A stretch of 64,000 bases of DNA from an uncultured Pseudomonadales bacterium (GTDB taxonomy: Bacteria; Pseudomonadota; Gammaproteobacteria; Pseudomonadales; UBA7434). The notes beneath the pieces are model-generated. The model did not search any database. It was not told the origin of the DNA and worked only from the letters and a program-made list of their open reading frames with translations. Below are positions 16,098 through 20,440 of the stretch, in pieces. The translations under genes were made by a program, and so were the position numbers. The stretch spans positions 1 to 64,000 of the forward strand of contig CAJQKT010000022.1 in the NCBI GenBank assembly GCA_905478995.1, written 5' to 3'. Each line of letters begins with the position of its first letter. Within the stretch, counting starts at the first letter, position 1.

Positions 16098-16256
16098 ACG
16101 CCCAAAACAAACTGATCTAAGTGGATTTTCTTGTCAGTGTATGTCGCCACTGCCGGGCTAATGGCGAACACTAGCTTCAACTGCGGCTGTTTATTCGCAA
16201 GCTGACTCAATCCAACCATGCCGGTCGCGAGCGACCGCTTTAACAGGAGATATACG

Positions 16257-16976
16257 ATGGGCCGTGCCTATCAAAACCGCAAAGACTCAATGGCAAAAAC
16301 GTCAGATGCCAAAGCACGCGTTTATAGTAAGTATGCTAGAGAAATTTATGTCTGCGCCAAATCGGGCGGTATCGACCCCGATGGCAATTTGACGCTTCGC
16401 AGCCTGATTGAACGTGCAAAGAAAGATCAAGTGCCTACGCACGTGATTGATAAAGCCATCGACAAAGCATCGGGCGGAGCCGGCGAAGATTTCGAAGTGG
16501 CGCGCTACGAGGGATATGGCCCGGGCGGATCGATGGTGATTATCGACTGCCTCACCGACAATGCTACCCGCACATTTAATGATGTACGTTTATGCTTCAC
16601 TAAAAATGATTGCAAAATTGGCACCCAAGGCACGGTCATGCATATGTTTGACCACGTTGCGATCTTTGTTTTTAAACACGACGACGAAGACGCCGCGCTT
16701 GAGGCTTTAATGATGGCCGATGTTGATGTAGGCGAATTCGAAAATGAAGACGGGATGATCACGGTCTTCGTTCCGCATACCGAGTACTTCAAAGCCAAGC
16801 AATCACTTACCGAAGCCTTTGGCACGCTCGCATTTGAAATCGATGAGATTCAATTTGTGGCACAAAACACTACGGCCGTAGCAGCCGAGCATGCTGAGAG
16901 TTTGGAAAAATTTCTTGCCATGATCGATGACCTCGACGATGTGCAGCGTATCTATCACAATGTAGAGAATGTGTAA
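16257..16976 (+). CDS. YebC/PmpR-family protein, YeeN subtype
   Basis: Member of the YebC/TACO1 family of translation or transcription factors. The sequence fits the shorter YeeN branch: it begins [10 protein letters not shown] and contains [38 protein letters not shown] and a C-terminal V-Q-R-I-Y-H-N-V. An upstream in-frame start at 16218 adds 13 residues that are not family-like. AGGAGAT before the ATG at 16257 settles the start (239 aa). Recent work on YebC proteins points to easing ribosome stalling at proline tracts; whether YeeN does so is not shown by this sequence. Confidence 0.9.
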
Positions 16977-17376
16977 CCGCCCCCCGTTGAGCTTACATAA
17001 GCCGCCTTAGCGCCCGGTGTCCGGGCGCCCCGTCCTCAGAGGCTGAGCAAGCCAGATTTAAATATATTTTACAATAAGTTGGAGGGTTATATTAAAGTAA
17101 ATTATTTTTTCGTTATGTTTTCTGTGCCTCGGCATACTTCAACCATCAATACGCACTTGCATCACGGTTATGTCGCTCACAGCTCTTAAGAATGCATCAC
17201 TTGCTTCAACTTAACGCTCACCCAAATCAATAATGAATACCTTGCACACTAAGCCATTTGTTGTTCGTGACGGGCTAGATTTTTAGCGTGCTTAATTTTA
17301 AAAATACTAGGCCTCGGGCTATAGTACAGATCCATTTAACAAGATATTTTTTTCTCTTACTTCTGGAGCCACAAAA
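16977..17376. other. Intergenic region between the YeeN and ClC genes, with a GC-rich hairpin
   Basis: 400 bases. At 17010-17028 there is a strong hairpin, GCGCCCGG-tgt-CCGGGCGC, 34 bases past the yeeN stop. No T-run follows, so it is not a textbook intrinsic terminator. A smaller CTCAG/CTGAG hairpin follows at about 17035-17047. The rest is AT-rich with no ORF; it should carry the ClC promoter. Confidence 0.5.
17010..17028. terminator. 8-bp GC-rich hairpin after yeeN, possible transcript end
   Basis: Perfect 8-base arms with a three-base loop. Because no U-tract follows, it could protect an mRNA 3' end or act with Rho rather than terminate by itself. Confidence 0.35.
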
Positions 17377-17379
17377 ATT
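17365..17379 (+). promoter_or_regulatory. Ribosome binding site and ATT start of the ClC gene
   Basis: GGAG at 17365-17368 lies eight bases before an ATT codon at 17377. The frame is open from 17311, and between there and a TTG at 17479 it has no ATG, GTG or TTG codon. ATT is thus the best-placed initiator; a sequencing error making a false ATT is the alternative. Confidence 0.55.
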
Positions 17380-19200
17380 TTAGCAAGACAAACCCATACA
17401 ATACTCAACCGTTTTCGCTATCGTTTAGGCGAACATGATGCTGTTTTACCACTCGCCGTACTTGGTGTTATATCAGGTTTGTTGACCGGCATTGTCATTA
17501 GTTTATTTCGCTTAGCCATTGAAGCTGCCTCGCACTACACCATTGAATCGTTAGCTGATACGCCGAACCAGACCATACCGTTTAGCCTTAGCGCTTTGCT
17601 CCAAGCAACGACCGCAAGCGCAACCAATACTGACCGCTTTGAAATGCTCAATACCGCGTTATGCTTTGGCCTGCCTTTAGGCGGCGCAATATTGCTTGGC
17701 CTAGTCTATCAACTGCTGCCAAAACACCTTCACTATACGGGTTTAAGCCATGTGCTGGTGACGCTGCACAAACACAACGGGCGCGCGCCTTTTGCTAATG
17801 GCCTAGTGCAATTCTTTGGCGGTATCGTTGCGCTAGCCAGTGGTCAATCAGGTGGCCGCGAAGGCCCTGCCGTGCACTTAGGTGCGGCAGTGAACAGCCT
17901 CCTATCGAGCCGTTTACATCTGCCGCACAACAGCATGCGCACGCTCATTGCCTGTGGCGCCGCCGCCGCCATTGGCGCATCATTTAATACGCCCATTGCC
18001 GGCGTTATTTTTGCAATGGAAGTCATCATCATGGAATACACCCTCATCGGGTTTGTTCCCGTTATTCTCTCCGCTATATCGGCAACGACCCTCTCGCAAA
18101 TTATTTTTGGTGATGCGCGCGTCTTTAACGTGCCCGATATGAGCATGAGCTCACATTGGGAAATCCCCTATTTAGCCTTACTCGGCTTTGCCTGTGGGTT
18201 TGCCGCACTGCTTTTTATGCGCATTCAATTACTCACACAAAAATTGCAGCACTGGCCGGTGCTCATTAAATTTACTCTAGCGGGTTTGTTAACGGGAAGT
18301 TTGGCCGTATATTTACCCGGCGTTTTAGGTATCGGCTACGATAGCGTTAATACTGCGCTAGCTGGCAACTCACATTGGCACTGGTTATTGATGTTGTGCC
18401 TGGCCAAAATCATCGCAACAGCAGTCAGCAGTGGCATGGGTATGCCCATTGGCATCATCGGCCCCAGCTTAGTTATTGGCGCCAGCTTAGGTGGATGTCT
18501 CGGTTTTTTTGGTGCCGCTTGGATACCCGAGCTCTCCTCCGATACCGGCTTCTATGCACTGTTAGGCATGGGCGGCGTAATGGCGGCCCTATTAAATGCG
18601 CCTCTGGCCGCTATTATTGCGATTTTGGAATTGGCCCATACACCCGAGGCCTTACTGCCGGGCATTATTGTCATCGTTATTGCCACGCTATGCTCCGACC
18701 AAATTTTTGGACAAGACTCAGCCATTGCTGCGGTTTTAAAAAGCCAAGGCATAAACCTTAGTACTCACCCGGTAGCGCAAGCTCTCAACCGCATTAGCTT
18801 GAGCGCTGTGTGTGATAGAAATATAGAAAAAATAGACCCTGTGGTGAGTGCGCAGCAGCTAGAACGCATCTCTCAAGATGAGCCACGGGCGGTAGTTCTG
18901 CAACGCGACACCGACCGCTATTATTTAATAACACGCAAAGAATTTTTGCAGTGGTATGAAGCACTATCGATGGATGAGAGAAACCACATTCGCACTATCG
19001 ATCATCTGCTAGAAAGCTTAAAGCGAGCACACATACCCGTTCAATCTTTACAGCAAATCGCCATTGAATCAACGGTGACCGAAGCACGCGATGCCTTGCA
19101 CAACAATAAATGTGACGGTCTCTACGTTATTGACCATTTCGGCCCGATGCGCGGCATTCTGCGCAAGAGCACGTTAGAAAAATTAATTGCCAGTTGGTAG
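17377..19200 (+). CDS. ClC-type chloride channel or H+/Cl- antiporter with C-terminal CBS region
   Basis: Integral membrane ClC-family protein. Selectivity motifs: G-R-E-G-P at residues 160-164 (gating glutamate Glu162), and G-M-P-I-G-I-I-G-P in the place of G-x-F-x-P. The first motif reads G-L-S-H-V instead of G-S-G-I-P, as in ClcB-like proteins. About residues 470-600 resemble a CBS pair. The first standard start codon, TTG at 17479, lies inside the first transmembrane helix and would remove family-typical residues (F-R-Y-R-L-G-E-H-D-A-V-L-P-L). The protein must start earlier, most likely at ATT 17377, giving 607 aa. It ends 37 bases before the convergent glycosyltransferase. Confidence 0.88.
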   Translation: MLARQTHTILNRFRYRLGEHDAVLPLAVLGVISGLLTGIVISLFRLAIEAASHYTIESLADTPNQTIPFSLSALLQATTASATNTDRFEMLNTALCFGLPLGGAILLGLVYQLLPKHLHYTGLSHVLVTLHKHNGRAPFANGLVQFFGGIVALASGQSGGREGPAVHLGAAVNSLLSSRLHLPHNSMRTLIACGAAAAIGASFNTPIAGVIFAMEVIIMEYTLIGFVPVILSAISATTLSQIIFGDARVFNVPDMSMSSHWEIPYLALLGFACGFAALLFMRIQLLTQKLQHWPVLIKFTLAGLLTGSLAVYLPGVLGIGYDSVNTALAGNSHWHWLLMLCLAKIIATAVSSGMGMPIGIIGPSLVIGASLGGCLGFFGAAWIPELSSDTGFYALLGMGGVMAALLNAPLAAIIAILELAHTPEALLPGIIVIVIATLCSDQIFGQDSAIAAVLKSQGINLSTHPVAQALNRISLSAVCDRNIEKIDPVVSAQQLERISQDEPRAVVLQRDTDRYYLITRKEFLQWYEALSMDERNHIRTIDHLLESLKRAHIPVQSLQQIAIESTVTEARDALHNNKCDGLYVIDHFGPMRGILRKSTLEKLIASW

Positions 19201-19237: not shown

Positions 19238-20440
19238 CTAAGCCGCAGGCGCGTTGGCGGCGAGCGCCGTCATTTTCTGATCGTATCTTACGTGCCACTG
19301 CGACCAAGCATAATGGTCAAGTGTCGGACACTGTGGCCTTGCTTGAGGTTGCTGCCATTGACATAGCTTAGCTACTATTGCATCAGCATTAATTGCAGGT
19401 GTTGGATGCCAGTCATACAAATACGCTGCAGCGAACTGCTCTGGATAGACCAGCTGATTAGGTAACAACGGCAAACAACCCTGCTGTGCAGCCTCAAGAA
19501 TAGCAATGCCTTGAAAATCGTGGAGCGCAGTCGAGAGGACGACATCACAAGACTTGAGCAAGCTTACATATTTTATGCGCGATTCTACAAAACCCCATTG
19601 CCCCATGCGTAAACAACTTGATGGATGCTCGCCAACGCTGAGTAACTGCTTAATCTGCTCAAAACTCTGTGGCCATTGTCGAAACTGCTGGCCCACTACA
19701 TGGATGGTGCAATGCAAACCGCTGTCTTGCAACGCAATGATTAAGGCCAATAAATGCTCTGGGCCCTTGTCGTATTCCCAGCGATGATTCCAAATGAGTT
19801 GGCAAGGTCGATCGGCACCCCATGCCAAGGGAAAATTGTTATGCGAGCACTCATCGCTTGATGCACGGTCGGTATCCAGCAGAGATGCGGACAAAAGTTG
19901 TGAACCCTCGTTATGCAACGGCACGGGCAGGATGTCGGCTTTGTTAGCAATACTAGTCAGTAGAGCGGGGCTCCATTTTTCGGGCAACCTTGCCACCAGT
20001 TGCCGCATGCCCGCCAGAGCTGTAGAGCGATTCCATTCGGAATTAAAGCTTATGGCATCAGCACACAAACAGCCATATAAAAACACCATCTGCGGCTCAA
20101 GTAATGCGCTTTTATTATTCGTCGTTTGCGTTGAACTCGGATAGGCGAATTGATTTTCGTGACAGTAGAGCCATAGCGGCACGTGCGCTAAGTTGGCAAA
20201 CAAACCTCGCAATGTCACTATATCAACCAACGAGGTCGCAATTAATAGGTCATAGTCTTGCTCTAGCGCCACGCGCTGCTCTAACAACCAGCTAATAGGA
20301 TTAGTGCGCACCCGAAAATTAAAATAGCGTGGCGGCAAGCTCAACACGGTCCAATCAACATCGGGGAAATTTTCGACCATGCCTTCGCGCCAATAGCGAT
20401 GACTCAATGCATCATAAGCAGACAACAATAAAACACGCAT
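19238..20440 (-). CDS. tRNA-queuosine mannosyltransferase-like glycosyltransferase (DUF3524/GTDC1 family)
   Basis: GT-B-type glycosyltransferase of the DUF3524 family, whose animal member (QTMAN, formerly GTDC1) adds mannose to queuosine in tRNA-Asp. The diagnostic N-terminus is clear: L-L-L-S-A-Y-D-A-L-S-H-R-Y-W, then V-L-S-L-P-P-R-Y-F-N-F-R, A-T-S-L-V-D, and L-W-L-Y-C-H-E-N-Q-F-A-Y-P. The C-terminal half has W-N-H-R-W-E-Y-D-K-G-P-E and S-T-A-L-H-D-F-Q-G-I-A-I-L-E-A, the nucleotide-sugar site. 400 aa is full length. The substrate in bacteria is an inference from the family. It is 81 bases downstream of the aminopeptidase. Confidence 0.85.
   Translation of the reverse strand: MRVLLLSAYDALSHRYWREGMVENFPDVDWTVLSLPPRYFNFRVRTNPISWLLEQRVALEQDYDLLIATSLVDIVTLRGLFANLAHVPLWLYCHENQFAYPSSTQTTNNKSALLEPQMVFLYGCLCADAISFNSEWNRSTALAGMRQLVARLPEKWSPALLTSIANKADILPVPLHNEGSQLLSASLLDTDRASSDECSHNNFPLAWGADRPCQLIWNHRWEYDKGPEHLLALIIALQDSGLHCTIHVVGQQFRQWPQSFEQIKQLLSVGEHPSSCLRMGQWGFVESRIKYVSLLKSCDVVLSTALHDFQGIAILEAAQQGCLPLLPNQLVYPEQFAAAYLYDWHPTPAINADAIVAKLCQWQQPQARPQCPTLDHYAWSQWHVRYDQKMTALAANAPAA

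Follow-up and report, generated by a model that had tools for sequence, protein, structure and literature searches.

Gene finders assume that translation begins at ATG, GTG or TTG and hence truncate the proteins that start at AUU; to our knowledge, very few AUU-started bacterial genes exist outside infC. A gene for a ClC-family chloride channel or transporter in an uncultured Pseudomonadales bacterium raises the question of where translation begins when none of the standard codons precedes the conserved protein. The gene lies on the forward strand, as do all the features given below, of the window analysed here, which covers the opening 64,000 bases of contig 22 in a draft genome of 2.55 Mb and 102 contigs. 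The evidence presented below argues that the gene is probably intact and translated from an AUU at position 17377, which would be set by a GGAG eight nucleotides upstream and would give a protein of 607 residues.

The ClC frame is closed on its 5' side by a TAG stop (17308-17310), which is the upstream limit for in-frame starts, and runs without interruption from 17311 through a stop whose last base is 19200, spanning 629 codons. The initial annotation had stated that no in-frame ATG, GTG or TTG occurs before a TTG at 17479-17481 and that an ATT at 17377 follows GGAG by eight bases. Both statements were confirmed exactly; GGAG occupies 17365-17368, the spacer is CCACAAAA (17369-17376) and the ATT is at 17377-17379. 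A second in-frame TTG comes directly after the first, at 17482. The TTG at 17479 falls in the conserved N-terminal stretch RYRLGEHDAVLPLAVLGVISGLLTG, and alignment to Escherichia coli ClcA, although weak, places it in the first membrane helix, in agreement with the earlier description. When all frames were scanned, no ATG, GTG or TTG was found in 17289-17434, that is, between a GTG at 17288 and an ATG at 17435. A promoter-like site, TTTAAA-17 nt-TATAGT (17297-17325, with the -10 at 17320-17325), matches the consensus at 9 of 12 positions, its -35-like hexamer being weak, which is near chance when taken alone; the sister species introduced below carries an equivalent site, TTCAAA-17-TATAGT.

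From the proposed start, the gene (17377-19200) consists of 607 codons and a stop, and is flanked upstream by yebC (16218-16976) and downstream by a convergent tRNA-queuosine alpha-mannosyltransferase gene (19238-20440). It belongs to the ClC family, Voltage_CLC (PF00654) being the single domain found in a Pfam profile search with a score of 287.8 bits against a curated cut-off of 24.8 (E-values of about 1e-86 to 1.6e-85). A GREGP motif with the gating glutamate is present and aligns with its counterpart in ClcA of the E. coli type. The same alignment shows that the second E of the EE pair of ClcA, its internal proton glutamate, is absent here, so that the protein departs from the H+/Cl- exchangers of the ClcA type; Val stands in its place, with FAMEVI here against FIIEEM in ClcA. 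Both features belong to window 17840-18040. The protein also scores under the NCBIfam cut-offs for both ClcA and ClcB. Retention of the gating glutamate together with replacement of the proton glutamate by Val makes channel-like behaviour possible.

Twelve genomes of the genus and family were searched, and a close ClC gene was identified in three of them only; a contig scan of further genomes returned the same two relatives, the rest being distant. The gene is absent from the interval between yebC and the mannosyltransferase gene in one member of the genus (G009), where a different ORF of 233 amino acids is found, and in another (G010) several kb separate it from the queuosine mannosyltransferase gene. 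Its distribution in the genus is thus patchy (loci L106 and L105).

The one close relative available for comparison is a sister species represented by a separately binned metagenome-assembled genome (G007, contig CALSRU010000004.1, ClC locus L035), in which the gene occupies the equivalent location, with 89.7% DNA identity over 3.5 kb and 95% protein identity. An ATG at the codon equivalent to 17377 in a close relative, which the initial annotation had named as evidence against its reading, was looked for in this genome, and ATT preceded by GGAG at eight bases was found instead; TGGAGCCACAA, which includes the GGAG, is identical at the equivalent place. The TTG pair at 17479 and 17482 is replaced there by TTA TTA. 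The two ClC genes differ at 27, 7 and 104 first, second and third codon positions, respectively, with no stops, and dN (0.024-0.028) is far below dS (0.21-0.29), with a dN/dS of about 0.08-0.13. The low ratio, the concentration of differences at third positions and the lack of stops indicate that the ClC protein is maintained by purifying selection. The first 12 codons from the ATT are poorly conserved, with three synonymous and four replacement differences, and therefore provide no proof of coding from this point.

In the third genus member with a close ClC gene (G010), the protein is 61% identical and the upstream region is non-syntenic. A TTG at 2959 with an ATT just before it was observed there with no clear Shine-Dalgarno sequence, and the alignment of the start region is unsafe. 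In the same assembly, infC (G010:C330:3-460) is interrupted by a TAA and its frames overlap, which points to assembly error; because of this stop the ClC start region of G010 was left out of the evidence.

The position of the ATT was compared with the starts of homologues in an alignment of 43 ORFs, comprising the window ClC and homologues from the order. The window ORF is alone among the 43 in having no ATG, GTG or TTG at its N-terminus; another ORF, L025, received the same flag, for the sole reason that its ATG falls a little past the reference column in the alignment. Homologue starts lie mostly 8-25 codons ahead of an FRxRL motif, and the ATT at 17377 lies at -12. Taken together, the all-frame scan and the alignment leave no usable standard start 5' of the conserved protein.

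The 16S rRNA was sought in these assemblies for the anti-Shine-Dalgarno sequence and was not found; duplex energies were therefore calculated assuming the standard ACCUCCUUA. The GGAG-N8-ATT arrangement, with its suitable spacing, has an energy of -5.6 kcal/mol, against -2.8 for TTG 17479, -0.7 for ATA 17401 and +0.4 kcal/mol for ATA 17344. Within the window, an energy of -5.6 kcal/mol is reached by 6.7% of internal ATT, ATC, ATA and CTG codons and by 15% of the first start codons of the long ORFs themselves, and by our own arithmetic, with a spacing of 7-9 fixed in advance from infC, a GGAG would precede one or another of the three ATH codons in this frame by chance in about 3.5% of cases. 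The Shine-Dalgarno sequence by itself is thus suggestive, modest evidence, and the case for the ATT rests on the conservation of GGAG-N8-ATT in the sister species and on the missing alternatives.

Among the alternatives, a recent loss of the start codon survives best, though we consider it unlikely. On this explanation the ancestral start was a GTG, as in the sister species, and the window copy is either a fresh pseudogene or subject to weak, fortuitous initiation. In the sister species a GTG (L035:2986) stands in frame 17 codons 5' of the ATT, at codon -29 relative to the motif. The window reads GTA at this place, and two one-base differences ahead of the ATT leave that GTA out of frame. Translation of the sister gene could begin at the GTG. 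Against such a loss, the remaining window frame of 629 codons is intact and evolves at a dN/dS of about 0.1, and GGAG-N8-ATT would have to be a coincidence. The GTG itself has a weak Shine-Dalgarno sequence (-2.4) and would give a longer N-terminus than is found in most homologues; moreover, it overlaps the -10-like TATAGT common to both species and would thus be untranscribed if this promoter, a consensus match only, is real.

Initiation at another codon of the same frame, either a non-standard one (ATA 17401 or TTA/CTA 17380) or the TTG at 17479, appears somewhat less likely still. ATA 17401 is retained in the sister species, but it is without a Shine-Dalgarno sequence; the TTG, being the first standard codon, is what gene finders would annotate, but it lies beyond the conserved RxRL..LG block, so that a start there would cut into the conserved N-terminal part, and its replacement by TTA in the sister species makes it not credible as a start. 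Rescue by a frameshift from another frame was also discarded, there being no standard start in any frame in 17289-17434, as was a slippery -1 site at AAAATTTT, for which the sister species reads ACAATTC instead. That an assembly or sequencing error masks a normal start is very improbable: the assembly is a draft in many contigs, but a single indel cannot restore a start where every frame lacks one nearby, and the equivalent codon of an independent genome is also ATT.

Initiation at the AUU of 17377, as proposed in the initial annotation, accordingly stands as the best-supported reading. The annotation had further drawn an analogy with infC and pcnB. The analogy holds for the geometry across the order and fails in part within the genus. 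In the infC loci compiled for the order, the IF3 frame mostly has ATT or ATC, and ATA in places; the ATT and ATC sites are mostly preceded by GGAG or an overlapping Shine-Dalgarno sequence at N7-N9, most commonly GGAG-N8, which is the geometry of the ClC site. Within the genus, pcnB shows no sign of an AUU start, having ATG or GTG candidates without a Shine-Dalgarno sequence.

The infC genes of the genus have an organisation of their own. In all nine members read (L053, L054, L087, L090, L093, L095, L096, L098 and L099; the infC of the window's genome is at about 12.9 kb of G000:C82), a TAA lies in the IF3 frame at the ATT, which does not open that frame. Instead, GGAG-N7/8-ATT-AAG-CAA opens an ORF of constant length, 11 codons, whose TGA overlaps a GTG (GTGA), from which IF3 then begins as VKGKDSKRA. 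The arrangement points to IF3 synthesis coupled to a leader ORF with an AUU start, which would keep the AUU-based autocontrol at one remove; a direct start at the GTG, or frameshifting, could also account for it. Over seven distinct sequences the variable columns of the leader number 5, 5 and 4 by codon position, and this lack of third-position bias indicates that the leader peptide sequence itself is not conserved. A full-text literature search of incomplete coverage gave no obvious precedent for such an arrangement among the papers listed.

If the ClC gene is started at the AUU, a transcript from the promoter-like site would have a leader about 45 nt long, on which the GGAG would select the AUU eight nucleotides downstream. 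The product would be a ClC protein of 607 residues beginning fMet-Leu-Ala-Arg-Gln, with a predicted N-terminal peptide of (M)LAR or MLARQTHTILNR. Because the pairing between AUU and the initiator tRNA is imperfect, such initiation would be weak and opposed by IF3; ClC synthesis is probably weak, then, and may be responsive to IF3, the channel being kept at a low level and made in larger amounts when IF3 activity falls. A broader proposal, which we hold to be doubtful, is that the AUU-started ClC gene and the AUU-started infC leader ORF form a small IF3-sensitive set in the genus, through which a drop in IF3 activity would lead to the synthesis of both IF3 and the channel, coupling ion transport to the condition of the translation apparatus. 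A ClC membrane protein with a conserved AUU start would be one more case outside infC and would extend the weak, IF3-sensitive type of start to transport genes.

The literature describes a few systems with which the ClC gene may be compared. A switch from AUG to AUU is extremely rare, being recorded for one of 61,358 ancestral AUG starts (PMC5622118), and in an earlier survey AUU starts were proposed for lepA in two species by comparison alone (PMC1780047). AUU starts function in E. coli infC and pcnB (PMC9410913). The E. coli infC resembles the ClC gene in having AUU after a Shine-Dalgarno sequence, the GGAG-N8 of the latter being the geometry seen in infC of the order, but it encodes IF3 and is autoregulated, whereas the window gene encodes a membrane channel or transporter whose sensitivity to IF3 is predicted. 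The E. coli pcnB is closer in being an ordinary gene with an AUU start, which limits its expression (Binns and Masters 2002, as cited in PMC9410913), as a low output is expected of ClC; it is a different gene, however, and its counterpart in the window's genus has ATG or GTG candidates. The Streptomyces sigR has a conserved non-canonical start outside infC, as is proposed for ClC, although the codon is GTC, the gene is another and its repression by IF3 was shown by experiment (PMC5472188), while that of ClC is a prediction. In Staphylococcus aureus, the conserved AUU start of cvfC1, with a strong Shine-Dalgarno sequence and ribosome profiling support, and the conserved AUA start of ccpN (PMC13009471) resemble the proposed ClC start, which is kept in the sister species, in being non-canonical and aided by a Shine-Dalgarno sequence; theirs are extended, very strong and accompanied by ribosome profiling, whereas the putative one of ClC has four bases.
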